Assembly: GCA_019118275.1 (NCBI GenBank)
Contig: DWZH01000042.1
Span: forward strand, 58,654-122,653
Direction: 5' to 3'
From: Candidatus Brachybacterium merdavium
GTDB lineage: Bacteria > Actinomycetota > Actinomycetes > Actinomycetales > Dermabacteraceae
Length of the DNA stretch: 64,000 bases
Below are positions 1-59,625 of this stretch, in pieces. Made by a program: the position numbers and the translations under genes. Under the pieces are notes generated by a model. That model saw nothing but the letters and a program-made list of their open reading frames with translations. It was not told where the DNA came from and made no database searches. How positions within the stretch are numbered: the stretch's first letter is position 1; each line of letters begins with the position of its first letter.

Positions 1-584
1 ACGACGGTGCCGGCCCCGGAGATGGTGAAGGAGCGGTCCACCCACAGTCGCACCCGGTCCTCGGCAGCGGGCTGCGGGGCGGCCGCGGTGACCTCGTCGA
101 GGCGGGCGCGCAGCTGCTCCATGCCCGCCCCGGTGACGGCGGAGACCACGCTCACGGGGGCCTCGGCCAGGCCGGTGCCGGCGAGCTCGGTCCGGGCCTG
201 GGCGATGACGGCCTCGACCCGGTCGGGGGCGAGGTCGGCGCGAGTGACCACCAGCAGCCCGCGGTCGAGGCCGAGGGCGGCGATCGCGTCGCGATGATCG
301 CTGGACTGGGCCTGCCAGCCTTCGTCGGCGGCGATCACGAAGCAGACGATCGGGGCCGGTCCGAGGCCGGCGAGCATATTGCCCAGGAAGCGTTCATGCC
401 CGGGGACGTCGACGAAGGAGACCTCCCGGCCGGAGGGGAGATCGGTCCAGGCGAACCCCAGGTCGATGGTCAGGCCCCGCCGCTTCTCCTCGGCCCACCG
501 GTCCGGTTCGATGCCGGTCAGGGCGCGGATCAGGGTGGACTTGCCGTGATCGACGTGCCCGGCGGTGGCGATCACGTGCCTCAT
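1..584 (-). CDS. selB: Selenocysteine-specific elongation factor SelB (N-terminal part)
   Basis: SelB is the GTPase that delivers Sec-tRNA to ribosomes stalled at UGA codons marked by a SECIS hairpin. Only about 194 N-terminal residues are in the window; the gene runs off the left edge, which is why it is missing from the ORF track. The P-loop GHVDHGKST lies at residues 9-17, a RGLTID switch I segment near 36-41, and the G3 motif DVPGH at 59-63. The C-terminal SECIS-binding winged helices lie outside the window. The ATG overlaps the selA TGA by four bases (ATGA), so the two are translationally coupled behind tRNA-Sec. A generic EF-Tu is unlikely given the neighbours. Confidence 0.93.
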   Translation of the reverse strand, partial: MRHVIATAGHVDHGKSTLIRALTGIEPDRWAEEKRRGLTIDLGFAWTDLPSGREVSFVDVPGHERFLGNMLAGLGPAPIVCFVIAADEGWQAQSSDHRDAIAALGLDRGLLVVTRADLAPDRVEAVIAQARTELAGTGLAEAPVSVVSAVTGAGMEQLRARLDEVTAAAPQPAAEDRVRLWVDRSFTISGAGTV

Positions 585-2005
585 CGCCGATCGTCCCCGT
601 CGTGCCCGGACCGGCTCTGCTCGCGCAGACGCTCGCGCGCCGCCTCGACGGCGCCGGCGAGCTGCGTCTGGGCGGTGTGCGGGACGCAGCGCAGGTCCAG
701 CAGCAGCTCCCCGCCGCGCAGGGTGCCGACCACAGCGGGATCGCCGGTGCGCAGCGGCGCGGCCAGCTCCTCCTCGAGGGCGAGCGCCCAACCGGGCAGC
801 GGCACCTCGGCCCCTCCCCCGCCGCCGACACGGCCGTCGTGCGGGACCACTCGCCCGCCGATCTGCTGGGCCAGCGCCTCGGTGCGATCGCGCAGGTGCC
901 CGGCATCGGCATGCAGGGATCCGGTCACCGGGGGCGGCGGCCCGGTCAGGGTCGCTTCCAGTGCGGCCAGGGTCAGCTTGTCCGCCCGCACGGCGCGGGC
1001 CATGGGATGGCGGGCCAACTGCGCGATCATCTCGGTGCGTCCCAGCAGGATCCCGGCCTGCGGTCCGCCCAGCAGCTTGTCGCCGCTGGCGATGACGAGG
1101 TCGGCGCCGTCGCGGAGGGCGGAACCGAGATCGGGTTCCTCGGGAAGCCGTGGTTCGGGGCCGAGCAGTCCGCTGCCCAGGTCGGCGATCAGCGGCACCC
1201 CGGACTCTCGGCAGGGGCCGGTGAGCTCGGCGACGTCCACCGCGCTGGTGAAGCCGATGACGCGATAGTTGCTGGTGTGGATGCGCAGCACGGCACCGGT
1301 GTCCGGGCCGAGGGCGCGAGTGTAGTCGGCCAGGTGGGTGCGGTTGGTGGTGCCCACCTCGCGGATCCGTGCACCGGTGGAGGCGATCAGATCGGGCAGG
1401 CGGAAGCCGGCACCGATCTCGATCAGCTCTCCGCGGCTGATGATGATCTCCCCGCGGCCGCCCAGGGCGGCGGTCGCCAGGAGCAGGGCGGCGGCGCCGT
1501 TGTTGACGACCAGGGCGTCCTCCGCCTCTGGGCAGGCCGCGAGCAGGGCGGACCGGGCGCCGGCCCCACGGCGGGCCCGGGCTCCCGTCCCCAGGTCGAA
1601 CTCGACGTCGGTGTACCCGCTGGCCTCCAGCATCGCCTGCCGCGCGGCATCCGACAGCGGGGCACGGCCGAGGTTGGTGTGCACGATGACGCCGGTGGCG
1701 TTGAGCACCGGGCGCAGAGACGCGGCCGGGCGGTCACCGATCGCCGCGAGCACCTGCTCGAGGACCTCTTCGGGAGCGATCTGCCCGGCACGGGCCCGGT
1801 CCTGCACGGCACGGATGATCCCGCGCAGCACCTGCGGGCCCAGCGCGGCCCCGGCTGCGGTGACCCGGGGGTGCTCGAGCAGATGGTCGGTGCGCGGGAT
1901 CCTGCGCCGCGGGTCGCTGTCGCGGCCGCCGGGTGGCGCCGATCCGAGGGCACCAGCCCCTTCCGAGTCGGACGCGAGATCCTCGACCGGTCCTGATGAC
2001 TCCAC
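581..2005 (-). CDS. selA: L-seryl-tRNA(Sec) selenium transferase SelA
   Basis: SelA is a PLP enzyme that converts Ser-tRNA(Sec) to Sec-tRNA(Sec) using selenophosphate. The 474-residue length matches the family (about 460-480). The central PLP fold carries VVNNGAAA near residue 167 and the Schiff-base lysine in SGDKLLGGPQAG at K310. The N-terminal segment LNATGVIVHTNLGRAPLS is typical of SelA. I chose the GTG at 2005, preceded by AGGAGG about 12 bases upstream. The ORF track start at 2131 must be wrong because it would translate through the tRNA-Sec gene. It lies 30 bases downstream of tRNA-Sec and overlaps selB by four bases, forming selC-selA-selB. Confidence 0.95.
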   Translation of the reverse strand: MESSGPVEDLASDSEGAGALGSAPPGGRDSDPRRRIPRTDHLLEHPRVTAAGAALGPQVLRGIIRAVQDRARAGQIAPEEVLEQVLAAIGDRPAASLRPVLNATGVIVHTNLGRAPLSDAARQAMLEASGYTDVEFDLGTGARARRGAGARSALLAACPEAEDALVVNNGAAALLLATAALGGRGEIIISRGELIEIGAGFRLPDLIASTGARIREVGTTNRTHLADYTRALGPDTGAVLRIHTSNYRVIGFTSAVDVAELTGPCRESGVPLIADLGSGLLGPEPRLPEEPDLGSALRDGADLVIASGDKLLGGPQAGILLGRTEMIAQLARHPMARAVRADKLTLAALEATLTGPPPPVTGSLHADAGHLRDRTEALAQQIGGRVVPHDGRVGGGGGAEVPLPGWALALEEELAAPLRTGDPAVVGTLRGGELLLDLRCVPHTAQTQLAGAVEAARERLREQSRSGHDGDDRR

Positions 2006-2034
2006 GGGCTCGAGGCACCTCCTGGGCGGCACGG

Positions 2035-2129
2035 TGGCGGAGGCGGACGGGAATCGAACCCGCCAGACCGAGCTGCTCGGTCTCACCGGTTTTGAAGACC
2101 GGGGTGCCCACCAGGACACGTACACCTCC
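2035..2129 (-). tRNA. selC: tRNA-Sec (anticodon UCA)
   Basis: The minus strand folds into a 95-nt tRNA with encoded CCA. GGAGGTG pairs with CGCCTCC in the acceptor stem, the anticodon arm CCGGT-CTTCAAA-ACCGG presents TCA, and a long variable arm (GAGACCGAGC/GCTCGGTCT) is present. The T arm is GCGGGTTCGATTCCCGT. UCA reads UGA, and the long extra arm and total length are hallmarks of tRNA(Sec). It lies directly upstream of selA on the same strand and is probably co-transcribed with it. Confidence 0.96.
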
Positions 2130-2321
2130 ATGGGTCACGAGCGCGATCGCGGCGAGTCCATGGATCCCTCGCCGCTGTCCGGGCGGCCGCCGGTGCTCGG
2201 GACGAGCCCGCCGGATTCCGGGTGCGCCGCCCCAGGGTATCGCCTCCGCCCGCGGGCTCCCGGCGCCTCGCCTATACCGGGGAGAGCGCGGGCTCCGGGC
2301 TCTCCCCGCAGGCGCCCGGCC

Positions 2322-2327
2322 TAGACT
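2322..2327 (+). promoter_or_regulatory. -10 element of a leaderless selD promoter
   Basis: TAGACT ends six bases before the selD ATG, placing transcription start at or next to the A of the start codon. No Shine-Dalgarno sequence is present. The same spacing recurs at about a dozen genes in this window. Confidence 0.6.
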
Positions 2328-2333
2328 CGGGGG

Positions 2334-3335
2334 ATGGCGACAATCTCCACTCCCCTGCCCGGAATCCGACTCACGACGATGGCCCACGGCGGCGGCTGCG
2401 CCTCCAAGATCCCAGCCGGTGAGCTCGAGGAGGTCGTCACGGCTCTCGCCGGACAGCACCACGACTCGGTGGTGGTCGGCCTGGCCGACGGCGACGACGC
2501 CGCGGCGGTGCGCATCGCCGACGGACTGGCCGTGCTGTCGACCGCCGACTTCTTCACCCCGGTGGTCGACGACCCCTTCGACTGGGGACGCATCACCGCC
2601 GCCAACGCGCTCTCGGACATCTATGCGATGGGCGGCGAGCCGGTCGTGGCCATCAACCTGGTCGGCTGGCCGCGGGCGACGCTGCCGCTCGAGCTGCTGC
2701 GTGAGGTCCTGGCCGGAGGACTGGCCACTGCACAGGAGGCCGGGGTGCCGGTGCTCGGCGGCCACTCGGTCGACGACCCGGAACCCAAGTACGGCATGGC
2801 CGTCACCGGCACCGCCGACCCCGAGCAGCTGCTGCGCAACGACGCCGCTCGGCCCGGGCTGCCGCTGACGCTGACCAAACCGATCGGCTCAGGGCTGCTG
2901 AACAACCGTCACAAGTCCACCGGTGAGGTCTTCGCCGCAGCGGTGGAGACCATGACGGCGCTGAACCGTGACGCCTCGCGGGCGGCGCTGGCCGCCGGTG
3001 CCCGGGCCGCCACCGATGTGACCGGCTTCGGGCTGCTGGGCCACCTGCACAAGATGATCAGGGCCTCCGGTGTCGGCGCAGTGCTCGACCAGGCGGCGGT
3101 GCCGCTGATCGAGGGGGCCGCCGAGGCGCTGCGTGACGGATACATCTCCGGTGGCACACGGAAGAACCTGGACTGGGTGCGCGAGCACCTGCGACCGGCC
3201 TCCTCCATCAGCGAGGAGGACCTGCTGGTGCTGGCCGATGCCCAGACCTCCGGCGGGCTGCTGGTGGTCGGCGAGGTGCCGGGCTACCCGGTGATCGGGG
3301 AGATCGTCGAGGGCTCCGGCATCGATGTGCGCTGA
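2334..3335 (+). CDS. selD: Selenide, water dikinase SelD (Cys form)
   Basis: SelD makes selenophosphate, the selenium donor for SelA, from selenide and ATP. The protein is 333 residues, usual for the family. The glycine-rich N-terminus AHGGGCASKIPAGEL supplies the catalytic Cys22 and Lys25; the position that is Sec in some homologues is Cys here, so SelD does not need its own product. ATP/metal motifs follow, including GDDAAAV near residue 51 and GGHSVDDPEPKYG near 143. It is divergent from selC-selA-selB and faces the fdh operon tail-to-tail. The ATG follows a -10 box by six bases and has no Shine-Dalgarno sequence. Confidence 0.96.
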   Translation: MATISTPLPGIRLTTMAHGGGCASKIPAGELEEVVTALAGQHHDSVVVGLADGDDAAAVRIADGLAVLSTADFFTPVVDDPFDWGRITAANALSDIYAMGGEPVVAINLVGWPRATLPLELLREVLAGGLATAQEAGVPVLGGHSVDDPEPKYGMAVTGTADPEQLLRNDAARPGLPLTLTKPIGSGLLNNRHKSTGEVFAAAVETMTALNRDASRAALAAGARAATDVTGFGLLGHLHKMIRASGVGAVLDQAAVPLIEGAAEALRDGYISGGTRKNLDWVREHLRPASSISEEDLLVLADAQTSGGLLVVGEVPGYPVIGEIVEGSGIDVR

Positions 3336-3376
3336 GCTGCGGGCAGGAGGCACGCCCGGCGCGGGGTCAGCCGCTC

Positions 3377-4480
3377 TCAGCCGGCGGTGGTGATCGAGTC
3401 GTCGGTGATGCCTGCCGCGCGGCGTGCCGCGAGCCGGGCCTTCTGCGGTTCGATCACACGGCGCGGGTCCTTGACCGACTCCAGCCCGGCCTCGAGCACC
3501 CCGTAACGGGTCAGGGCCGACGCCGCGAGCAGCGCCGCCCCCGAGGCCGCGGCGATCCAGCGGCGGCGGCCACCGACGAGGGCGCCGATCCCGCCCACGA
3601 TCGCCAGGCGCTCGGCCCACTGCAGCTTGGTGCCGGCCCGGCCGGTCTCCAGCGGCTCGGACTCCAGCGGGTGCATCGACTCCTTCATGGCACGCATCGT
3701 GACCACGTCCCCGACGACACCGGCGGCGGCCAGGAGCCGGGCCGGTCCCGCCTCGACGACCGGGGTGGTCACCATCGCGGCGCCCCCCGTGGCCAGACTC
3801 GCCGAGGAGACGAACAGGTAGGACAGGTGGTCACGGGAGGCGGCCCAGGTGGGCACGGCGGTATCGGCCAGCAGCGCGCCCGTGTACGAGGCCAGGGCCG
3901 GTCCCAGTGCCCCCTGGGCGAGAGCCAGCGGGGTCTCCATGCCGTGGACCAGGCCGCGCAGTGACCGCAGTGGGACCTTCTCCCCCACCATCCGGTCCAC
4001 CTCGATGGCTCCCAGCACCCCCGAGACGGTGCCGAAGCCGCCCAGCAGCCAGGTGCCCAAGCTCATCGGAGAGGTCACCTTGAAGGTGCGCATCATGTTC
4101 AGGAAACGCTCGGGCCGGCCCAGATCCTCGATCAGGGCCGCGGTCCCCAGCCCCACGGCGCCCAGGGCCACCAGACGCGAGTTGCGACGCAGGGCAGGGC
4201 GATCGGTCAGCTGCGCGCCCAGGGAGAGCATCCCGCAACCGCCGGCGAGGCCGCCCAGGAAGAGGTAGGCCGCGATCGGGCCGCGCCAGGGCGGGGCCTT
4301 GACCACCTGGCGGCCGTAGTAGGAGTCGAACTGGATGTCGCCGACCAGCTGCGCCTCGCGGGTCCCGTCCCCGCCACCGGCACGGAAGGGGTCCATGGGC
4401 CGACGCCGCCTGCGCGTGCCGCTTCGCCGGCGGCGCGGCGGCTCGGGCGGGCGATCGGAGTCGAGATCGGAGACGCTCAT
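3377..4480 (-). CDS. nrfD: NrfD/PsrC-family membrane subunit of formate dehydrogenase
   Basis: This is probably the quinone-reactive membrane subunit that passes electrons from formate dehydrogenase to the menaquinone pool. It is 367 residues long with an Arg-rich hydrophilic N-terminus of about 60 residues, followed by roughly eight hydrophobic segments. The first carries APPWRGPIAAYLFLGGLAGG, a pattern typical of NrfD/PsrC, and EDLGRPERFLNMMRTF follows near residue 118. It is the third gene of fdhA-fdhB-nrfD, and its start overlaps the fdhB stop (ATGA). It replaces the cytochrome b gamma subunit used by E. coli FDH-N. The NrfD family call is firm; the quinone chemistry is inferred from family and operon. 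Confidence 0.88.
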   Translation of the reverse strand: MSVSDLDSDRPPEPPRRRRSGTRRRRRPMDPFRAGGGDGTREAQLVGDIQFDSYYGRQVVKAPPWRGPIAAYLFLGGLAGGCGMLSLGAQLTDRPALRRNSRLVALGAVGLGTAALIEDLGRPERFLNMMRTFKVTSPMSLGTWLLGGFGTVSGVLGAIEVDRMVGEKVPLRSLRGLVHGMETPLALAQGALGPALASYTGALLADTAVPTWAASRDHLSYLFVSSASLATGGAAMVTTPVVEAGPARLLAAAGVVGDVVTMRAMKESMHPLESEPLETGRAGTKLQWAERLAIVGGIGALVGGRRRWIAAASGAALLAASALTRYGVLEAGLESVKDPRRVIEPQKARLAARRAAGITDDSITTAG

Positions 4481-5478
4481 CGGCGGCCCCCCAGGAACGA
4501 GAGGGCCGCCACCGTGGCCATGCCGGCTGCCGCGATCCCCACCTTGGCGAACATCTGCGGCAGGAACTTGGTGGACACCTGCGGATCCGGCGGCAGCCCG
4601 TAGACCTCAGGTTCGTCGAGCAGCAGGAACACCGAGCCGGTGCCCCCGACCCCGTCGTTGGCGTTGGCACCGTACAGGCGCGCCTCGGTCATGCCCCGGT
4701 CGTGGAGCTGCTGGACGCGCTCCTGCGCGTCACCGACCAGCTCCTCATGGTCGCCGAACCGGATGGACTGGGTGGGGCAGGTGGCGGAGCAGGCCGGCTC
4801 CTGACCGTCGACCAGACGGTCGTGGCACAGGGTGCACTTCTTGGCGGTGCCCTGGTCGGGAACCTCGTCCGTCCCCCCGGCACCGGTGGTGAAGGTGCCG
4901 TCGTCACGCCGCTCGATGACCCCGAAGGGGCAGGCCGCCACGCAGGTGCCGCAGCCGTTGCAGACATCAGGCTGCACCACCACGGAGCCGAACTCGGAGC
5001 GGTAGATGGCACCGGTGGGGCACACGTCCAGGCACCCGGCGTTGGTGCAGTGCTTGCACACGTCGGAGGACATCAGCCAGCGGAACTCCGGGGTGTCCGG
5101 CGGGGTGGTGTCCACTCCGGCGAGATCCCCCTCGGGCAGATCCCCGCGGCGGCCGCCGCTCTTGGGGCCGATGCCGGGCATGCCCAGGCTGACCAGCTTG
5201 CGGCCGGACTCACGGGCCTGCTCGATCCGCTCCTGCCCCTGTTCGACGAAGGCCACGTGGCGCCAGGTGTTGGCACCCAGCTCCCCGGTGTTGTCGTAGC
5301 TCTGGCCGAGGATCTGCAGATCCCCGTCGGTCGGGTTGCGATTCCATTCCTTGCACGCCACCTCGCAGGCCTTGCAGCCGATGCAGATCGAGGTGTCGGT
5401 GAAGAACCCCTTACGGGGCTGGTCGTGGCCCCAGCCGGTGGAGGCGGCAGGTCCCTCGGGCCCGGACAGCAGGGTCAT
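4477..5478 (-). CDS. fdhB: Formate dehydrogenase iron-sulfur subunit FdhB (beta)
   Basis: This electron-transfer subunit relays electrons from the Mo/W site of FdhA to the membrane subunit. It is 333 residues from the ATG at 5478. Cysteine clusters for four 4Fe-4S centres are visible: CIGCKACEVAC near residue 30, CKHCTNAGCLDVCP near 130, CNGCGTCVAACP near 160, and CTLCHDRLVDGQEPACSATCP near 205. A single hydrophobic helix near the C-terminus (VGIAAAGMATVAALSFL) could anchor it. The ORF track start at 5712 lies inside fdhA and is rejected because the ATG at 5478 overlaps the fdhA TGA by four bases. Confidence 0.95.
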   Translation of the reverse strand: MTLLSGPEGPAASTGWGHDQPRKGFFTDTSICIGCKACEVACKEWNRNPTDGDLQILGQSYDNTGELGANTWRHVAFVEQGQERIEQARESGRKLVSLGMPGIGPKSGGRRGDLPEGDLAGVDTTPPDTPEFRWLMSSDVCKHCTNAGCLDVCPTGAIYRSEFGSVVVQPDVCNGCGTCVAACPFGVIERRDDGTFTTGAGGTDEVPDQGTAKKCTLCHDRLVDGQEPACSATCPTQSIRFGDHEELVGDAQERVQQLHDRGMTEARLYGANANDGVGGTGSVFLLLDEPEVYGLPPDPQVSTKFLPQMFAKVGIAAAGMATVAALSFLGGRR

Positions 5479-8400
5479 CGGTTGTCCAACTCCTTCATCG
5501 AGGGATTGTTGTCGGGGACCGCGCCGGCTTCGAGCGGGCCCCGGACGCTCGCCGGGCTGAACCCGTCGACCGGTCCGCCGCCCACCGGGTCCACCCCGCC
5601 GCCATCGACCTGCGCCTGCTCGGCCGGCAGGATCCCGGCCCGGCGACGGTAGTCGTCGACCAGCTCCCGCAGCGCCGGTCCCCGTGGCCGTCTGCCGGGG
5701 CGGATGGCGCACGAGTTGTTCTTGCTGTTCTGGATCTGCACGTTCGCGTCGAGGTTCATGCCGATCAGGTCGTTGGCACCATCCCCCTGGACGATCGCCT
5801 CATGGCCCCGACCGAAGTGGAAGGGCATGCCGATCTGGTGCACCGTCGAGTCCCCGGTGCGGATCGGTTTCATCCGCTCGGTCACCAACACCTTCGCCTC
5901 GATGGCCGATCGTGCGGAGATGATCGTGGCCCACCCGTAGGGCTCCAGCCCCGCCTCTTCGGCCAGCTCCGGGGAGACCTCGCAGTACATCTGCGGCTGC
6001 AGCTCCACCAGGTAGGGCAGGAATCGGCTCATGCCGCCGGCGGTGTGATGCTCGGTGATGCGGTAGGTGGTGAACACGTGCGGATAGACGCTGCCGCCCT
6101 CCCCCATCGCCCCGGGCGAGCTGAGGTTGTCCTCATCGATGAAGGTGACCCTGGTGGGGTTCGACTGCTGCGTGTACAGCGGGTTCCGCACGTTCGACTC
6201 GGGGGCCTCGTAGTGGGTGGGCAGCGGGCCGTCGACCATGCCGGTGGCCCCGAACAGCCAGCCGCGCCCATCGGCCTGCATGGTGAAGGCGTCGTTCCCG
6301 GCCAGCGCGGCGGCACCGCCGGCATCCGGGTCGCCCGGGTCGTCGGGACGCTTGGTGATCGGGAAGTCGGGGACGTCGTCGCCGGTCCATCTGCCGGCTT
6401 CCTCGTCCCACCACACCAGCTTCTTGCGCTCGCTCCACGGTCTGCCCTGCGGGTCCGCCGAGGCGCGGTTGTACAGGATGCGCCGATTGGCGGGCCATGC
6501 CCATCCCCATTCGGCGGCGATCTCGTCCTGCTCGGAACCGGGCGTGCGCCGGCGGGCCTGGTTGACGCCGTCCGCGTAGACCCCCGCATAGATCCAACAG
6601 CCCCCGTCGGTGGAGCCATCGGCCTTCATCTCGTTGAAGCTGCTGAGCGGCTGCCCGGCCTTCTCTCCGCTCAGGTGGCGTCCGTTGATCTCGGCCAGCA
6701 CCGCTTCGGCGTCGGGTTCACCGTTCTCGTCCGTCGGGTAGTCCCAGGTCAGCTCGAGGATCGGTCGATCACGTTCATCGGTGGAGTCCTTGAGCTTCTC
6801 CCGGACGCGCTTGCCGAGCTCGTAGGTGAACTGCAGATCGCTCTGGGCGTCCCCGGGCGGGTGGACCGCCTGGTCGCGCCACTGCACCATCCGCTGGGTC
6901 TGGGTGAAGGAACCTGCCTTCTCCGTGTGGTTCGCGGCCGGCAGGAAGAACATCTCCGTGCCGATCTCCTCGGTCCTCAGCTCACCGCTCTCGATCTCCG
7001 GGCCGTCCTTCCAGAAGGTGGCCGATTCGATCATGTAGAAGTCGCGCACCACCATCCACTTCAGCTGGGCCATGCCCTTGCGCTGCAGACGGCCGTTGGC
7101 CGATCCCACAGCGGGGTTCTGGCCGTACAGGAAGTACCCGTCGACCCCGCCCTCGTTCATCCGCATGGTGGTCTGATAGGTGCCGTGCGCACCGGTGAGC
7201 TTGGGCAGGTAGTGGTATCCGAAGTCGTTCTCCGCGGTGGCCGCATCGCCCCACCAAGCCTTGAGCAGGCTGGTGGTGTAGTTCTCGGCGTTGGCCCAGT
7301 ACCCCTTCTGCTCCTTCTTCCCGATCGCCCGGGTGAACTCGTGGAAGTCGTCCTGGCCGACCTTGGGCATCGGCAGGTACCCGGGCAGGATGTGGTAGAG
7401 CGTCGGGATGTCGGTCGAGCCCTGGATGGTGGCGTGGCCGCGCAGGGCCATGACCCCGCCGCCCGGCCGGCCGATATTGCCCATCAGCAGCTGCAGCACC
7501 GAGGCGGTGCGGATCATCTGCGGGCCGCCCTGATGCTGGGTCCAGCCCAAGGCGTAGGCGAAGACCGTGGTCCGGTCCCGCCCCGAGTTCTCGGCGACCG
7601 CATCGGCCAGGTACTCGAACTCCTCGCGGGAGATGCCGCAAGTGGCCTCGACCAGCTCCGGCGTGTACCGGGCGTAGTGGCGCCTCAGGATCTGCAGCAC
7701 CGAGCGGGGGTGCTGCATCGTCTCGTCACGCTCCGGCAGCCCGCGGTCGAGCCGGTCCTGCGGCCCGTCGTAGGACCACGAGGAGTTGTCGTAGGTGCCC
7801 GTCTCCGGGTCGTAGCCGGAGAACAGCCCGTCGAGGTCCTCCGTGTCGGCGTAGTCCTCAGCGATGATGGTCGAGGCGTTGGTGTACGCCTGCACGTACT
7901 CCTTGAAGTACAGCTCGTTCTCGAGCACGTGACGGATCACGGCGCCCAGCAGCACGATGTCGGTGCCCGCGCGGATCGCGATGTGCCGATCGGCATTGGC
8001 CGAGGTGCGCGTGAACCGGGGATCGATGTGGATCACCTTCGCGCCGCGCTTCTTCGCCTCCATCACCCACTGGAAGCCCACGGGATGAGCCTCGGCCATG
8101 TTCGAGCCCTCGATGACCACGAGGTCCGCATTGGCCATGTCCTGCTGCGACTGGGTGGCTCCGCCACGTCCGAACGAGGTTCCCAGACCGGGAACCGTGG
8201 AGGAGTGTCAAATGCGCGCCTGGTTCTCGATCTGTATCGCACCGGCGGCGGTGAAGAACTTCTTGATCAGATAGTTCTCCTCGTTGTCGATGGTCGCCCC
8301 GCCCAGGCTGGCGATACCCATCGTGCGCCGCAGTGGACGCCCCTGGGAGTCCTCGGCCTCCCAGTGCCTGCGCCGCGCCTCGATGAAGCGGTCGGCGATC

Positions 8401-8774
8401 ATGTCCATCGCGGTGTCGAGGTCCAGATCCTCCCAGTCGGTGCCGTACGGCCGCCGGTAGCGGACCGTGGTCTGCCGATGCTTGGAGTTGGCGAGCTGCT
8501 CGCTGGCGGCGCCCTTGGGGCACAGCCGTCCGCGGGAGACGGGGGAATCCGGGTCGCCCTCGATCTGGATGACCTTGCCGTCCTTGTGGAAGATGCGCTG
8601 ACCGCAGCCGACGGCGCAGTACGGGCAGATGCTCTGCGCGACCCCGTCGGCATCGGCGGTGCGGGGCTCGAGGTCCCGAGTCCGCTGCGAGGTGACCGAG
8701 GTGCCGCGGCCCGTGGGATCGGCACCTCTGAGCTGGCGGATGACCGGCCAATCGAGGAACGTCTTGCTGCCCAT
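5475..8774 (-). CDS. fdhA: Selenocysteine-containing formate dehydrogenase alpha subunit (TGA at 8208-8210 = Sec189)
   Basis: This is the molybdopterin catalytic subunit that oxidises formate to CO2. The full reading frame is 1,099 residues: the 188-residue ORF from 8774 and the ORF track entry ending at 5475 are one frame joined across a TGA. The N-terminal 4Fe-4S ligands are CPYCAVGC...RLCPKG. The active site reads NQARI-U-HSSTVPGLG then TSFGRGGATQSQQD, matching Sec-FDH alignments (E. coli FdnG has NQARV-U-H). A SECIS hairpin follows the TGA. The C-terminal domain contains a molybdopterin-binding stretch with FHFGRG and DLIGMN. No twin-arginine signal is visible at the N-terminus (MGSKTFLDWPVIRQ). 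The start follows a -10 TAATGT by six bases. It leads the operon fdhA-fdhB-nrfD. Confidence 0.96.
8178..8210 (-). promoter_or_regulatory. Sec UGA codon and bacterial SECIS hairpin in fdhA
   Basis: On the minus strand the in-frame TGA (8210-8208) is followed after 11 bases by GGTTCCC-GGTCT-GGGAACC, a perfect 7-bp stem with a GGTCT loop. The loop begins 18 bases after the TGA. E. coli fdhF, as I recall it, has the same GGUCU loop at the same distance. This is the element SelB recognises to recode UGA as selenocysteine. Confidence 0.92.
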
Positions 8775-8780
8775 GGAGCC

Positions 8781-8786
8781 ACATTA
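8781..8786 (-). promoter_or_regulatory. -10 element of a leaderless fdhA promoter
   Basis: The minus strand reads TAATGT, then GGCTCC, then the fdhA ATG. The six-base gap puts the transcript start at the start codon, and no Shine-Dalgarno sequence is visible. It supports 8774 as the true start and hence the absence of a Tat signal. Confidence 0.6.
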
Positions 8787-8826
8787 GCACCGTGACCACC
8801 GTCGACGCCTCCGTCTCGGCACAGCG

Positions 8827-9180
8827 CTACCGCTCGGTGGGCTCCTCGTCGCGCAGGCGTTCGTGGTGCCGGATGACCTCGGTGACGATGAAGCGCAGGA
8901 AGGCCTCGGCGAAGACCGGGTCGAGGCCCGCCTCATCGGCCAGGGAGCGCAGACGCCGGATCTGGTCCTGCTCGCGGGACGGATCGGCCGGGGGCAGGCC
9001 GTGGGTGGCCTTGAGGACCCCGACGCGCTGGGTGTGCCGGAACCGTTCGGCCAGCAGGTGCACCAGAGCGGCGTCGATGTTGTCGATGCTACGGCGTTCG
9101 TCGAGCAGGAGCTCCTCTGCGCGGATGGTGTCGTCCGGGCGGCCCGAGGCGTCGCCGGAGCCGGTCGCTGCGGCCGCCAT
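8827..9180 (-). CDS. Chorismate mutase, AroQ type
   Basis: This small all-helical enzyme converts chorismate to prephenate for Phe/Tyr synthesis. It is 117 residues. RRSIDNIDAALVHLLAERF near residues 30-48 is the typical first helix, followed by RVGVLKATHGLPPADPSREQ, which carries the expected Lys and Arg active-site positions, and a final helix FIVTEVIRHHE. The start ATG overlaps the clpX stop (ATGA), so it is translated from the clpX message. The first 25 residues are low-complexity, and a start slightly downstream is possible. Shikimate-pathway neighbours are absent, so the coupling to clpX appears accidental or lineage-specific. Confidence 0.88.
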   Translation of the reverse strand: MAAAATGSGDASGRPDDTIRAEELLLDERRSIDNIDAALVHLLAERFRHTQRVGVLKATHGLPPADPSREQDQIRRLRSLADEAGLDPVFAEAFLRFIVTEVIRHHERLRDEEPTER

Positions 9181-10523
9181 CAGGCGCTGCGCTCCTGCTG
9201 GGAGCGTTCCTGGGCCCGGTCCGAGTCCTTGGTGGTGACCATCAGCGGGCCACGGCCCTCGGTGACCACGCCGGCGGTGATCACCACCTTGGCGATGTCG
9301 TCACGGGAGGGCACCTCGAACATGACCGGCTGCAGCGACTCCTCGAGGATGGCGCGCAGTCCGCGCGCGCCGGTCCCGCGCTCGATGGCCTTCTCGGCGA
9401 TGGCCTCCAGGGCGCTGGCCTCGAAGTCCAGCTCGACACCGTCCAGGGCGAACATCTTCTGGTACTGCTTGACCAGGGCGTTGCGCGGCTCGGTGAGGAT
9501 CTTGATGAGCGCCGGCCGATCGAGGTCGGACACACTGGTGATCACCGGCAGACGACCGATGAACTCGGGGATCAGTCCGAAGGTCAGCAGGTCATCGGGC
9601 TGGAGCTGGCCGTAGATCTGCTCCTGCTCCAGGGGCGTGTGCAGCTCCGAGCCGAAGCCGATCCCCCGCTTCCCGATCCGCGTGCCGATGATGTCCTCGA
9701 TACCGGCGAAGGCACCGGCGACGATGAACAGCACATTGGTGGTGTCGATCTGGATGAACTCCTGGTGGGGGTGCTTGCGTCCTCCCTGCGGGGGCACCGC
9801 CGCCACCGTGCCCTCGATGATCTTCAGCAGCGCCTGCTGCACGCCCTCGCCCGAGACGTCCCGCGTGATCGAGGGGTTCTCGGACTTCCGCCCGATCTTG
9901 TCCACCTCGTCGATGTAGATGATGCCGCGCTCGGCCTTCTTCACGTCATGGTCGGCGGCCTGCAGCAGCTTCAGCAGGATGTTCTCGACATCCTCACCGA
10001 CGTACCCGGCTTCGGTCAGCGCGGTCGCATCGGCCATCGCGAAGGGGACGTCCAGCATCCGGGCCAGCGTCTGGGCGAGGTAGGTCTTCCCGCAGCCCGT
10101 GGGGCCCACGATCAGGACGTTGGACTTGGCGACCTCGATGCCGTCCTCGGTCTCTTCGACCTCCGCCTCACCTCCGCCGGGTTTCTTGGCGCCGGTCGGC
10201 GCGCTGGCCGCGGTGTCCTCCTGGGCGCGCACCCGCTTGTAGTGGTTGTAGACGGCGACCGACAGGGCGCGCTTGGCGGGATCCTGGCCGATCACGTACT
10301 CGCCCAGGAACCCGAAGATCTCCTGCGGGGTGGGCAGGGCCGTCTGCTCCTCGGCGGCGGGCTGGGCGGCCTGGATCTCCTCGGCGATGATCTCGTTGCA
10401 CAGCTCGATGCATTCTTCGCAGATGTACACGCCGGGGCCGGAGATCAGCCTCTCGACCTGCTTCTGGGACTTGCCGCAGAAGGAGCATTTGAACACGTCG
10501 GCTCCATCGCCCGTGCGCGCCAT
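9180..10523 (-). CDS. clpX: ATP-dependent Clp protease ATP-binding subunit ClpX
   Basis: ClpX is the AAA+ unfoldase that recognises substrates and threads them into ClpP. It is 447 residues. The N-terminal zinc-binding domain has C13, C16, C35 and C38 (CSFC...CEEC). The AAA+ core has Walker A GPTGCGKT near residue 140, Walker [14 protein letters not shown] near 200, and the pore-adjacent segment [17 protein letters not shown]. The linker at about 90-125 is longer and more acidic than in E. coli. It lies downstream of clpP1-clpP2 but is separated by a strong terminator hairpin, so it probably has its own promoter. The chorismate mutase gene follows with an overlapping start. Confidence 0.97.
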
Positions 10524-10728
10524 GTCCGTGTCCTCTCATCGGTCCGACTTCGTCTTCGCTGGTGCCCTGCTACGCCCCATTCTCCCATCGGGAACGAGCC
10601 TGGCCGTGCGCGGTTCCACGCTACCCCGGCGGTCTTCGGCGCCGTGGGAGGCAGGCCGCCGTGGCGACCGCCGCCGAGGACCCGGGCCGGTCCGTCGGAA
10701 CGGCTGATGGACCGGGCCGGAGCCAGTG

Positions 10729-10759
10729 CGCGCCCGGATGCTCGGAGCATCCGGGCGCG
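10729..10759 (-). terminator. Terminator palindrome between clpP2 and clpX
   Basis: CGCGCCCGGATGCTC-G-GAGCATCCGGGCGCG is a perfect 15-bp inverted repeat lying 21 bases past the clpP2 stop. It lacks a clear T-tract, as is common for actinobacterial hairpin terminators. The rest of the 257-bp clpP2-clpX gap shows no recognisable feature. Confidence 0.75.
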
Positions 10760-10780
10760 ACCGCTGTGCCGCGTGATCGA

Positions 10781-11485
10781 TCAGCTGGAGACCTGGGGCC
10801 GCACGTCCTTGCGGGACTCGAGCACCTGGTCGACCAGCCCGTACTCGAGCGCGGCGCTCGCAGTCAGGATCTTGTCGCGCTCGATGTCCTGGCTGATCTG
10901 CTCCTTGTCACGGCCGGAGTGGAAGGCGAGAGTCTCCTCGAGCCATTCGCGCATGCGCAGGATCTCGTTGGCCTGGATCTCGATGTCCGAGGCCTGACCG
11001 CCGCCCTGGCCCCCCATGGCCGGCTGGTGGATGAGGATGCGGGCGTTGGGCAGCGCCAGGCGCTTGCCGGGCGACCCGGCGGCCAGCAGCACGGCGGCGG
11101 CCGAGGCCGCCTGGCCCAAGCACACCGTGGTGATCTCGGGCTTGACGTACTGCATCGTGTCGTAGATGGCGGTCAGCGCGGTGAAGGATCCACCGGGGCT
11201 GTTGATGTACAGGATGATGTCGCGCTCGGGGTCCTGGGACTCGAGCACCAGCAGCTGGGCCATCACGTCATCGGCCGACGCATCGTCGACCTGGACGCCG
11301 AGGAAGATGATGCGGTCCTCGAACAGCTTGGTGTAGGGATCCTGGCGCTTGAGGCCGTAGGCGGTGCGCTCCTCGTACTGCGGCAGCACATAGCGCGAAG
11401 TGGGCAACGGCGCGGCGGGGCGGGAGTCGAACGATGGGGCCTGGGCGTAGGGCATCGGGACGGTGGTGCGGGGATCGAAGGTCAC
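10781..11485 (-). CDS. clpP2: ATP-dependent Clp protease proteolytic subunit ClpP2
   Basis: This is one of two ClpP subunits that in actinobacteria assemble into a mixed ClpP1P2 barrel. It is 234 residues from the GTG at 11485, which has AAGGAG five to six bases upstream. The catalytic serine is S128 in [13 protein letters not shown] and the histidine is H153 in LIHQPAMGG. The IGF-loop region and handle helix are intact. An N-terminal extension of about 45 residues ([15 protein letters not shown]...) probably includes a propeptide. The ORF track start at 12076 reads through clpP1 in another frame and is not the gene start. clpP1 lies 65 bases upstream, and a terminator follows. Confidence 0.96.
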
Positions 11486-11550
11486 GGGGTCTCCTTGGTC
11501 GAAGCGGGTCGGTGTCTGGCGCGGTCGGAGCCGGTGGCAGATGGCGAGGG

Positions 11551-12183
11551 TCAGCTCGCGGTGCCGCCGCCACCCGTGACGTCGCCCGCCCGGTTGACGA
11601 TCTGGTCGATGAAGCCGTACTCGAGGGCCTCGGTGGCGGTGAACCACTTGTCGCGGTCCGAGTCGGCGGTGATCTGCTCGACGCTCTTGCCGGTCTGCTC
11701 GGCGATCAGCTCCGCGAGCGTGCGCTTCATGGACAGGATCAGATCGGCCTGGATCTTGATCTCGCTCGCGGTGCCTCCCAGGCCGCCCAGCGGCTGGTGC
11801 ATGAGCACGCGCGTGTGGGGGGTCGCGAAACGCTTGCCCTTGGCGCCGGAGGAGAGCAGGAACTGCCCCATCGAGGCGGCCATGCCCATGCCCACGGTCA
11901 CGACGTCGGGCTGGACGAACTGCATGGTGTCGTAGATGGCCATCCCCGCGGTGATCGATCCGCCCGGGCTGTTGATGTAGAGATAGATGTCCTTGTCCGG
12001 ATCCTCGGCCGCCAACAGCAGCAGCTTCGAGCAGATCGCGTTGGCGACATCGTCGCGGACCTCGGAGCCCAGCCACACTATCCGCTCGCGCAGCAGGCGC
12101 TGGTAGACGTTGTCATCGAGGCCCAGGGCGTTGTCCCCGACGACATTGCCGGGCTGGGAGGTGAGGTCGTGCTGCGAGGTCAC
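11551..12183 (-). CDS. clpP1: ATP-dependent Clp protease proteolytic subunit ClpP1
   Basis: This is the second ClpP subunit, 210 residues, with catalytic S104 in [11 protein letters not shown] and H129 in VLMHQPLGG. It differs from ClpP2 at its termini, with a Gly-rich C-terminal tail (VTGGGGTAS). The start is the GTG at 12183, preceded by AAGGAG five bases upstream. It leads clpP1-clpP2. Upstream on the same strand are a possible -10 (TAGAGT, 12225-12220) and a palindrome CGCCGCAGGCG resembling a ClgR box. The pair acts in the cytoplasm with ClpX and ClpC. Confidence 0.97.
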
Positions 12184-55732: not shown

Positions 55733-58174
55733 ATGCCCTCTGCTGACACCCCGGCTGCGCCCCGCCCCGCGGATCGGGCTCACATCGCCGACGCCCACGA
55801 CCTGCTGCGGGTGCGCGGTGCCCGCGAGAACAATCTGCGCGGGATCGATCTGGACCTGCCCAAGCGCCGGCTGACGGTATTCACCGGGGTCTCCGGTTCC
55901 GGGAAGAGCTCCCTGATGTTCGGGACCATCGCGGCCGAGTCGCAGCGGATGATCAACGAGACCTACAGCTCCTTCGTGCAGGGCTTCATGCCGCAGCTGG
56001 CCCGGCCCGATATGGACTCGCTGGAGGGTCTGACCACCGCGATCGTCGTCGACCAGGAGCGGATGGGCGCCAACGTCCGTTCGACCGTCGGCACCGTCAC
56101 GGATGCCAACGCCTATCTGCGCACCCTGTTCTCCCAGCTCGCCGAGCCGCATGCGGGCGGGCCCGGGGCCTACTCCTTCAACGTGCCCTCCGTGTCCGGC
56201 TCCGGTGCCATCACCGTCGAACGCGGAGCGAAGACCATCGCCGAGAAGGCCAGTTACACGCGGGTGGGCGGCATGTGCCCTCGCTGCGAGGGCATGGGCC
56301 AGGTCACCGACCTGGACCTCACCCAGCTGTACGACGAGGACAAGTCCCTCGAGGACGGGCCCTTCCTGGTGCCCGGCTATTCGGCCGGCGGCTGGTACGA
56401 GAAGCTGTTCGCCTCCTCAGGCTTCTTCCCGACCGATCAGCCGATCAGGTCCTTCACCCGGCGCCAGCTGCACGACTTCCTGTACAAGGAGCCCACCAAG
56501 ATCCGGCTCGAGGGTGCGAACATGACCTATGAGGGCCTGATCCCCAAGATCCAGAAGTCGATGCTCAGCAAGGACCGCGACTCGATGCAGCCGCACATCC
56601 GAGCCTTCGTCGATCGCGCGGTCACCTTCATCATCTGCCCGGAGTGCGAGGGCACGCGCCTGGCCGAGCACGCCCGCACCTCGCGTATCGACGGGGTCTC
56701 CATCGCTGACGCCTGCTCGATGCAGATCACCGACCTCGCGGGATGGGTGCGGGGGCTGGGCAGGCAGAACGCCTCGGCGCAGGTGGCGCCGCTCCTGGGC
56801 AACCTCTCGGCCCTGCTGGAGTCCTTCACCCAGATCGGCCTGGGCTACCTGTCGCTGGACCGCCCCTCCTCGACGCTGTCGGGCGGCGAGTCCCAGCGCA
56901 CCAAGATGATCCGACACCTCGGCTCGGCGCTGACGGATGTGACCTACGTGTTCGACGAGCCGACCATCGGCCTGCACCCGCACGACATCGCGAACATGAA
57001 TACCCTGCTGCAGCAACTGCGCGACAAAGGCAACACGGTGCTGGTCGTGGAGCACGAGCCCGAGACCATCGCCATCGCCGATCACGTCGTCGACCTCGGA
57101 CCCCGCGCCGGTGCCGACGGCGGACAGGTCCAGTACGAGGGCGACGTGGCCGGACTGCGTGCCTCCGACACCCTGACCGGCCAGCACCTGGACCGGCGGG
57201 CACAGTTGAAGGAGCGGGTGCGCGAACCCGTGGGGCACCTCGAGATCCGCGACGCCAGCCACCACAACCTCGACTCCGTCGACGTCGACATCCCGCTCGG
57301 TGTGCTGACCGTGGTCACGGGGGTGGCCGGCTCGGGCAAGAGCTCCCTGGTGCACGCCTCGATGCCGAAGGACGCCGGCGCCATCGTGGTCGACCAGACC
57401 GCGATCCGCGGGTCCCGCCGCTCGAACCCGGCCACCTACACCGGTCTGCTGGAGCCGATCCGCAAGGCCTTCGCGAAGGCCAGCGGCAGGAAGCCCGCCC
57501 TGTTCTCCCACAACTCCGAGGGGGCCTGCCCGGCCTGCAAGGGCGCCGGCGTGATCTACACCGAGCTCGGGTTCATGGAGACCGTGGCGACCCCGTGCGA
57601 GGAGTGCGAGGGCAGGCGGTTCCGCGCCGACGTGCTCGAGCACACCCTCGGCGACAAGAACATCGCCGAGGTGCTGGCCCTGTCCGTGGCCGAGGCGCAG
57701 GCCTTCTTCACCGACCCCGGGACGAAGGTGCCGGCCGCCGCGAAGCTGCTGGGTCACATGCACGACGTGGGGCTGGGCTACCTGACCATCGGGCAGCCGC
57801 TGACCACGTTGTCCGGCGGCGAGCGGCAGCGGCTCAAGCTCGCCACCCACATGGGCGACAAGAGTGGCATCTACGTGCTCGACGAGCCCACCACCGGTCT
57901 GCACCTGGCCGACGTCGACCAGCTCCTGGACCTGCTGGATCGCCTCGTGGACTCCGGGAAGACCGTGATCGTGATCGAGCACCACCAGGCGGTGATGGCC
58001 CACGCCGACCATCTCATCGACCTCGGCCCCGGGGCGGGGGCCGACGGCGGCCGGATCGTGTTCGAGGGCGCTCCCGCCGAGCTGGTCGCCGCGGCATCCA
58101 CGCTCACGGGAGAGCACCTGGAGCGGTACGTCGGACGCCGACCCCGGGGGAGAGCGTGCGCATCCACCACCTGA
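55733..58174 (+). CDS. UvrA2-like (class II) ABC ATPase
   Basis: This 813-residue protein is a short UvrA homologue of the UvrA2/DrrC group, associated with drug tolerance or auxiliary DNA-damage roles rather than core repair. Two ABC modules are present: Walker A FTGVSGSGKSS near residue 52 with signature LSGGESQRTKMIRHLGS, and Walker A VTGVAGSGKSS near 535 with signature LSGGERQRLKLATHMGD. Zinc modules CPRCEG, CPECEG, CPACKG and CEECEG are retained, but the UvrB-binding domain is reduced. I chose the ATG at 55733 with GAGGAGG five bases upstream. Its end overlaps the MBL gene by 19 bases. Confidence 0.9.
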   Translation: MPSADTPAAPRPADRAHIADAHDLLRVRGARENNLRGIDLDLPKRRLTVFTGVSGSGKSSLMFGTIAAESQRMINETYSSFVQGFMPQLARPDMDSLEGLTTAIVVDQERMGANVRSTVGTVTDANAYLRTLFSQLAEPHAGGPGAYSFNVPSVSGSGAITVERGAKTIAEKASYTRVGGMCPRCEGMGQVTDLDLTQLYDEDKSLEDGPFLVPGYSAGGWYEKLFASSGFFPTDQPIRSFTRRQLHDFLYKEPTKIRLEGANMTYEGLIPKIQKSMLSKDRDSMQPHIRAFVDRAVTFIICPECEGTRLAEHARTSRIDGVSIADACSMQITDLAGWVRGLGRQNASAQVAPLLGNLSALLESFTQIGLGYLSLDRPSSTLSGGESQRTKMIRHLGSALTDVTYVFDEPTIGLHPHDIANMNTLLQQLRDKGNTVLVVEHEPETIAIADHVVDLGPRAGADGGQVQYEGDVAGLRASDTLTGQHLDRRAQLKERVREPVGHLEIRDASHHNLDSVDVDIPLGVLTVVTGVAGSGKSSLVHASMPKDAGAIVVDQTAIRGSRRSNPATYTGLLEPIRKAFAKASGRKPALFSHNSEGACPACKGAGVIYTELGFMETVATPCEECEGRRFRADVLEHTLGDKNIAEVLALSVAEAQAFFTDPGTKVPAAAKLLGHMHDVGLGYLTIGQPLTTLSGGERQRLKLATHMGDKSGIYVLDEPTTGLHLADVDQLLDLLDRLVDSGKTVIVIEHHQAVMAHADHLIDLGPGAGADGGRIVFEGAPAELVAAASTLTGEHLERYVGRRPRGRACASTT

Positions 58175-58950
58175 ACTGCGGGACGCTGCGCCCACCGGGT
58201 GAGTCGATGGTCTGCCATGTGCTGCTGCTCGAGACCGGCCCGCGCCTGGTGCTGGTCGACTCAGGGTTCGGGACGGCCGACGTGCGGGATCCGCGCCGGC
58301 TGGGCCCGGTGCGCCGCGTGATCGGTGCGGCGCTGCGCGAGGAGGAGACCGCGATCGCCCAGATCCGCTCCCGGGGCCTGGACCCGGCCGATGTCGGCGA
58401 CATCGTCCTCACCCACGGCGATCTCGACCATGCCGGTGGGATCGGGGACTTCCCCCGGGCGCGGATCCACCTGCTCGCCGAGGAGTACGTGGCGATCCAT
58501 CGTCGCCGCGGGCTGCGGGAGGCCCAGCGCTACCGGCCCCTCCAGTGGAGCCACCGTCCGCACCTGATCGGCCACCCTCCGGGCGAGGGCAGGTGGAAGG
58601 GCTTCGAGCAGGTCGTGGATCTGGGCGAGGTCCTGCCGGGGATGCTGCTGGTGCCGCTGCCCGGGCACACCGCCGGGCATGCCGGCATCGCGATACCCGG
58701 CGGGGACGGGTGGCTGCTGCACGCGGGCGATGCCTTCCACTCCCCTGTCTCGCTCGAGGCAGGCCGCAGCCGCCCGGACGTGCACCTGCGGCAGGGCCTG
58801 CTCGCCCATGCCGCACCGGCGCTGCGGCGCACCCAGAGGGCTCTGTCCGCCCTGTCCGGCGCCGCGGAGGTGCAGATCATCAATTCCCATGACCGCGGGC
58901 TGTGGGAGGCGAGTCGGGCCGCAGAGCCGGGCGGCGTGAACGGCGCCTGA
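58156..58950 (+). CDS. Metallo-beta-lactamase fold hydrolase
   Basis: This 264-residue MBL-fold hydrolase has the metal-binding motif VLTHGDLDHAGGIGDFP near residue 83, then PLPGHTAGHAGIAIPGGDGWLLHAGDAFHS and the last histidine in IINSHDR. The GTG at 58156 has GGGGGAGA just upstream and overlaps the 3' end of the UvrA2 gene, so the two are coupled. The family covers lactonases, glyoxalase II-like thioesterases and resistance enzymes; the substrate is not evident. The ORF track start at 56743 lies inside the UvrA2 gene and is spurious. Confidence 0.85.
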   Translation: MRIHHLNCGTLRPPGESMVCHVLLLETGPRLVLVDSGFGTADVRDPRRLGPVRRVIGAALREEETAIAQIRSRGLDPADVGDIVLTHGDLDHAGGIGDFPRARIHLLAEEYVAIHRRRGLREAQRYRPLQWSHRPHLIGHPPGEGRWKGFEQVVDLGEVLPGMLLVPLPGHTAGHAGIAIPGGDGWLLHAGDAFHSPVSLEAGRSRPDVHLRQGLLAHAAPALRRTQRALSALSGAAEVQIINSHDRGLWEASRAAEPGGVNGA

Positions 58951-58971
58951 GCGGCGCAGGATCCCCGGCCC

Positions 58972-59625
58972 CTAACCGTTCAGCGTCTTGTACAGGGCCA
59001 GCGCCAGGCCGGTGCGATCGCGGGCGCCGAGCTTGCGCAGAAGCGCGGAGACGTGGTTCTTCACGGTGCCCTCGGCGAGCACCAGGCTCTCGGCGATCTC
59101 CGTATTGGTGCGGCCTTCGGCCACCTGCTCGGCGACCAGGCGCTCGGCGCGGGTCAGCACTGCCAGGGGGTCATCACCGGACCGTCCCGCCAGGGTGCCC
59201 TCCGCGCTGCGGCCCATGGCGATCCGGGTGACCCGCGGGTCGATCACCATCCCGCCGCCGGCCACGGAACGGATCGCCTCGGCGAGCGCATCGGTCGAGG
59301 TGTCCTTCAGCAGGAAACCGGCCGCTCCTGCCGCGAGGGAGCCCTGCACGACGGCTTCGTCATCGAAGGTGGTCAGCAGCAGGACCGGAAGTCCGGGATG
59401 GTCGATGCGGCAGCGTGCCACCAGTTCGATGCCGTCCATGCCGGGCATTCGCACATCGGCCAGCACCACATCGGGACCGTGCTTGCCGATGACGGCCAGG
59501 GCCTCGAGGCCGTCGGCCGCAGCGCCGACGATGTCGATGTCCTCCACGGTCGACAGCAGCATCGCCAGCCCGCGCCGCAGCAGCTCCTGGTCGTCGACCA
59601 GGACGATGCGCAGGGGCGGGGTCAT
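58972..59625 (-). CDS. NarL/LuxR-family response regulator 2
   Basis: This 217-residue response regulator pairs with the kinase upstream. D57 in VVLADVRMPGMDG is the phosphoacceptor, LLLTTFDDEAVVQ and GAAGFLLKDTS follow, and the LuxR HTH has LTRAERLVAEQVAEGRTNTEIAESLVLAEGTVKNHVSALLRKLG. The start overlaps the kinase stop (ATGA). It is convergent with the MBL gene. The palindromic TGACCACGGTCA in the kinase/CPBP promoter region is the likely binding site. Confidence 0.92.
   Translation of the reverse strand: MTPPLRIVLVDDQELLRRGLAMLLSTVEDIDIVGAAADGLEALAVIGKHGPDVVLADVRMPGMDGIELVARCRIDHPGLPVLLLTTFDDEAVVQGSLAAGAAGFLLKDTSTDALAEAIRSVAGGGMVIDPRVTRIAMGRSAEGTLAGRSGDDPLAVLTRAERLVAEQVAEGRTNTEIAESLVLAEGTVKNHVSALLRKLGARDRTGLALALYKTLNG

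Follow-up and report, generated by a model that had tools for sequence, protein, structure and literature searches.

A standard actinobacterial selenocysteine-formate dehydrogenase locus in Candidatus Brachybacterium merdavium, with FdhA as the probable sole client

Zhang and colleagues (2006) proposed that the selenocysteine (Sec) trait co-evolves with the formate dehydrogenase alpha subunit FdhA, often its sole client, encoded in the same operon and transferred together with it (PMC1794560); a 2016 survey repeated the link between the Sec trait and FdhA, with selD included (PMC5029168). Among the Actinobacteria, the 2010 genome paper on Corynebacterium aurimucosum described selABCD together with fdnG and fdxH, genes of formate dehydrogenase, and called the gene order highly conserved (PMC2830990). 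A search of the literature for selenocysteine in Brachybacterium found no relevant paper. Here we describe a locus from Candidatus Brachybacterium merdavium that belongs with these systems. It lies at the left end of a 64,000-nucleotide stretch of DNA (the window; G000:C4:58654-122653) within an assembly of 3.66 Mb in 137 contigs. We consider it very likely that the locus is the standard actinobacterial one for selenocysteine and formate dehydrogenase, in which the sel genes serve the TGA codon of fdhA and FdhA is probably their only client.

On the minus strand, reading from the right, the window carries clpX, a chorismate mutase gene, fdhA, fdhB and an nrfD-type gene, followed by selC, selA and selB. 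The plus-strand selD lies between the fdh group and the selC-selA-selB group, convergent with the nrfD-type gene and divergent from selC. The features are as follows:

10523-9180, minus strand: clpX
9180-8827, minus strand: chorismate mutase gene
5475-8774, minus strand: fdhA, alpha subunit of a selenocysteine formate dehydrogenase, 1,099 residues including Sec (NF041513; TIGR01553)
8208-8210, minus strand: in-frame TGA, predicted to be read as selenocysteine (NQARI-U-HSSTVPGLG)
8178-8196, minus strand: bacterial SECIS-type (bSECIS) stem-loop, 7-bp stem GGTTCCC/GGGAACC, loop GGTCT (covariation and covariance model)
4477-5478, minus strand: fdhB, iron-sulfur subunit (TIGR01582, 166 bits; several 4Fe-4S Pfam domains)
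3377-4480, minus strand: NrfD-type membrane subunit of formate dehydrogenase (PF03916, 66.6 bits)
2334-3335, plus strand: selD, selenophosphate synthase, Cys form (TIGR00476, 375.9 bits; GGGCASK near the N-terminus)
2130-2333, no strand: intergenic region separating the divergent selC and selD, with a TAGACT box immediately ahead of the selD start (from the sequence)
2035-2129, minus strand: selC, tRNA-Sec, anticodon tca (ARAGORN; Rfam RF01852, 81.1 bits)
581-2005, minus strand: selA, L-seryl-tRNA(Sec) selenium transferase (TIGR00474, 404.6 bits; single copy in this genome)
1-584, minus strand: first 584 bases of selB, whose ATG (584) overlaps with the stop codon of selA (TIGR00475, above cut-off; PF09107)

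The initial annotation had described selC, selA and selB as co-directional, with junctions of 30 bp and 4 bp, and selD as divergent, and this is what we see: selA, with a GTG start at 2005 and its stop at 581, follows selC by about 30 bp, and the ATG of selB overlaps the selA stop by 4 nt. Overlaps of this 4-base ATGA form occur at selA/selB, fdhA/fdhB and fdhB/nrfD. The same annotation had placed a complete module in under 9 kb. All the components are indeed present, but the window holds only about a third of selB, and 1.2 kb more is needed past its edge, where the gene ends at G000:C4:57450 (57450-59237; window position -1203), intact and encoding 595 aa. Nor do the sel genes flank the fdh operon as had been stated; they adjoin it, all on its downstream side, while the other side is occupied by the chorismate mutase gene and clpX. 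Beyond selB lies a further gene (window -2611 to -1310; L002:17046-18344), present in many, not all, Brachybacterium, whose N-terminus looks WXG-type-like by eye and whose product gave no match in Pfam or NCBIfam.

All four parts of the Sec-decoding trait (SelA, SelB, SelC and SelD) are encoded. The ARAGORN call for selC is accompanied by an Rfam score well over the gathering score of 47, and SelA exceeds the cut-off of its family. SelB scores 251.3 bits against a TIGR00475 cut-off of 242.25 and ends in the SECIS-binding winged-helix domain (PF09107, 55.7 bits, residues 547-590). The selD gene has no internal TGA. By the known activities of these families, SelD would make selenophosphate, SelA would convert the selC-encoded seryl-tRNA(Sec) to selenocysteyl-tRNA(Sec), and SelB, bound to the stem-loop that follows the fdhA TGA, would deliver this to the ribosome at that codon. 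A few bases 5' of the selD ATG, at window positions 2319-2334, is a TAGRCT-type box that recurs in many relatives and suggests a leaderless selD transcript. A 10-bp inverted repeat before selD was considered as a conserved operator and rejected, the repeat not being kept in relatives.

FdhA scores 1841.8 bits against the NCBIfam model NF041513 (formate_DH_Act; cut-off 1400), and nothing notable sets it apart from that family; it also passes TIGR01553, with 951 bits. TIGR01582 is the best family for FdhB, whose score falls below its cut-off. The three proteins resemble E. coli FdnGHI (formate dehydrogenase N) in comprising a catalytic Sec subunit, an iron-sulfur subunit and a membrane subunit, and differ from it in that the membrane subunit is of the NrfD type rather than the cytochrome b type of FdnI. 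We infer that this molybdopterin enzyme most likely oxidizes formate and, through its iron-sulfur and NrfD-type subunits, hands the electrons to the quinone pool. We looked for a twin-arginine pair in FdhA residues 1-60 and found none; to judge from this, and in contrast to E. coli FdnG, the enzyme may be oriented toward the cytoplasm. Several Brachybacterium relatives have a short extra stretch near FdhA residue 340.

The single in-frame TGA of fdhA (8208-8210) occupies the active-site position, with conserved coding on both sides. A stem-loop begins 11 nt past it, with a 7-bp stem, a GGUCU loop and 18 nt between the TGA and the loop; the SECIS loop of E. coli formate dehydrogenase N is of the same type. 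The folding energy of this element alone is not unusual for GC-rich DNA of this kind (z -0.40). Of the stem cells in 30 distinct actinobacterial sequences, 96.2 percent are paired and 12 are doubly changed, compared with a shuffled mean of 2.0, and sliding the partner columns by 1-3 loses most of the pairing. The C-G pair adjoining the loop is replaced by U-A in several Corynebacterium. A covariance model built from fdhA stem-loops only (R1) finds the element in a search of this genome at E 4.2e-12. The gene carries a TGA and a stem-loop of the bacterial SECIS type, and Sec insertion at this codon is predicted.

The distribution of the genes ties the machinery to this enzyme. This genome has one selA and one fdhA. 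Of the 47 family genomes, 42 have both selA and fdhA and the remaining five have neither, and every fdhA (42/42) contains an internal TGA. Across the wider order, FdhA scores above the family cut-off in 93 of 297 genomes, nearly all with one TGA. The exceptions seen among full-length proteins are two, from G211 (L184, 3391) and G095 (L185, 3461): each has a Cys codon where the others encode Sec, and the 20-kb stretches read around them contain no sel genes; in these, Sec has likely been replaced by Cys.

The initial annotation had suggested that FdhA may be the only selenoprotein in this lineage. The single selA, the single fdhA and the shared distribution fit this suggestion, and when this genome was searched with R1 for further SECIS elements, only fdhA was credibly matched, no second site being found with this fdhA-tuned model, which would miss a very different SECIS. 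Beyond fdhA, R1 gave two weak matches only (E 1.9 and 5.8): one of them lies shortly before the start of a translational GTPase gene, the other in a frame open even without it. Both were rejected as extra selenoproteins for want of a matching coding frame. Bacterial SECIS elements vary widely among gene families, which counts in favor of another reading, namely that FdhA, though the chief selenoprotein, is joined by another, encoded elsewhere in the genome by a gene whose TGA is accompanied by a SECIS of a different kind from the fdhA element. R1 was derived from fdhA alone, and several selenoproteins are known in some bacteria then classed as Actinobacteria (PMC1794560). We regard this as unlikely, given that no family genome has selA without a Sec-type fdhA, that G007 lacks both, that SelD, a common second selenoprotein, is here the Cys form, and that the next-best two R1 matches fall outside matching coding frames. 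Somewhat more doubtful still is the particular case of a second, undescribed Brachybacterium selenoprotein whose SECIS does not resemble the fdhA element and which vanished with the sel genes in G007. We infer instead that FdhA is probably the only Sec-using protein in this genome; the claim is held at this strength because R1 recognizes fdhA-like elements.

Compactness, which had suggested both a single client and gain or loss as one unit, proves a weak guide, since this arrangement is shared widely among actinobacteria and is not lineage-specific. The best SelA matches come from named Brachybacterium loci, which also have the same gene order. The block has an identical order in 31 further Brachybacterium stretches, and the same order is found in loci of Arthrobacter, Kocuria, Nesterenkonia, Mycobacterium, Mycolicibacter, Skermania, Gordonia, Corynebacterium, Propionibacterium, Leucobacter and Ruania, with selC just before selA in those checked. 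The locus of C. aurimucosum is alike in having a formate dehydrogenase gene with an internal UGA beside selD, selC, selA and selB (PMC2830990). Corynebacterium loci match the present block in order and orientation, while their proteins are about 45-70 percent identical to those described here and their flanking genes are different. The selA-selB-selC operon of Pseudomonadales and other proteobacteria is a more distant parallel, with Sec genes clustered with fdhA, FdhA as sole client and transfer as a unit proposed; selD is treated there as evolving apart from selA-selB-selC (PMC1794560), whereas here it lies within the block, divergent from selC. The order of the block is not particular to the Brachybacterium lineage; it is ordinary, and already described and explained.

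The interval between selD and selC varies among relatives. A transposase gene lies there in L119 (G016), at about 8000-12000 in selA orientation, and several Brevibacterium and Mycolicibacter have other genes at this position, amounting to several kb. These inserts were considered as extra selenium genes and rejected, being a transposase (L119), a very large protein (Brevibacterium) and others without sign of a selenium role; the L119 transposase was the insert compared with the family library. In L147 (G003) and L146 (G027) selA is seemingly broken by frameshifts or a stop, as is fdhA in G003, through either decay or sequencing error.

Wherever a Brachybacterium stretch reaches far enough, the block sits between clpX-chorismate mutase and valS. 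One member of the genus, G007, has clpX and the chorismate mutase gene on one side of this site and valS on the other, but the place of the block (L150 14670-16008) holds only a small gene of the Phd/YefM antitoxin type, and tblastn detects no remnant of the fdh or sel genes. In a tree of ClpX and ValS, G007 falls inside the genus, in a group with 97/97 support that excludes the sel-positive G035. Because G007 nests in a group that leaves a sel-positive genome outside, the absence of the block is best read as loss. G007 also lacks fdhD and moaA, which are unlinked to the block in relatives, and thus the unit lost is the whole formate dehydrogenase trait and not this stretch alone. The other four sel-negative genomes of the family belong to other genera and retain fdhD and moaA. 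The proposal that the trait is gained or lost as one unit is supported for loss, by one clear case in which the whole block is gone from the same site; for gain it stays a suggestion, the SelA tree being weakly resolved around the family.

Two other genera of the family, g2 and g4, carry the block intact, but not beside clpX or valS, and in the SelA tree the g4 protein groups with two Brevibacterium and not with its own family, with moderate support. For these genera, transfer or rearrangement is possible. That the block is more generally a mobile or exchangeable unit, moving between chromosomal sites or genera, would account for its intact presence at a different site in g2 and g4 and for the nearness of g4 SelA to two Brevibacterium. 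We think this improbable in view of its one constant site in all 31 Brachybacterium stretches and of the moderate support in the SelA tree, and no integrase was seen inside the block. We keep to the reading of a standard locus, in which the sel genes would be retained for one codon and lost once formate oxidation is lost.

The activity of FdhA would also depend on genes elsewhere. An fdhD gene, as looked for following the initial annotation, is present on contig C17 (G000:C17:54938-55714) and scores above cut-off. Searches of this assembly at the DNA, protein and family levels did not find moaA, moeA or a MoCF_biosynth protein, although moaA is above cut-off in nearly all other family genomes; taken at face value, their absence would leave FdhA without its cofactor. 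In relatives about 10 kb at most separates the molybdopterin genes from groES-groEL. The gene groES is essential in bacteria of this kind; it is present in all three control relatives and missing from this assembly, in which contig C12 ends (27221) inside a groEL gene. The assembly is rated 99.96 percent complete, yet lacks groES, moaA and moeA. Because this essential neighbor is missing too, we read the absence of moaA and moeA as most likely an assembly gap, and on the same ground rejected a loss of molybdopterin synthesis in this strain. The remaining form of that idea, that the genes are intact but idle in a strain unable to make molybdopterin, with the fdh and sel genes on their way out, draws on the same departure from nearly all family genomes. 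It is highly improbable when set against the missing groES of that neighborhood, the contig that stops within groEL, the presence of fdhD, and the open and conserved state of fdhA, selA, selB and selD.

Brachybacterium is one more genus in which Sec decoding seems to be maintained for a single enzyme. In G007 the Sec machinery, formate dehydrogenase, FdhD and MoaA are all gone, which makes it a clean natural case, useful for studying how the trait is dismantled.
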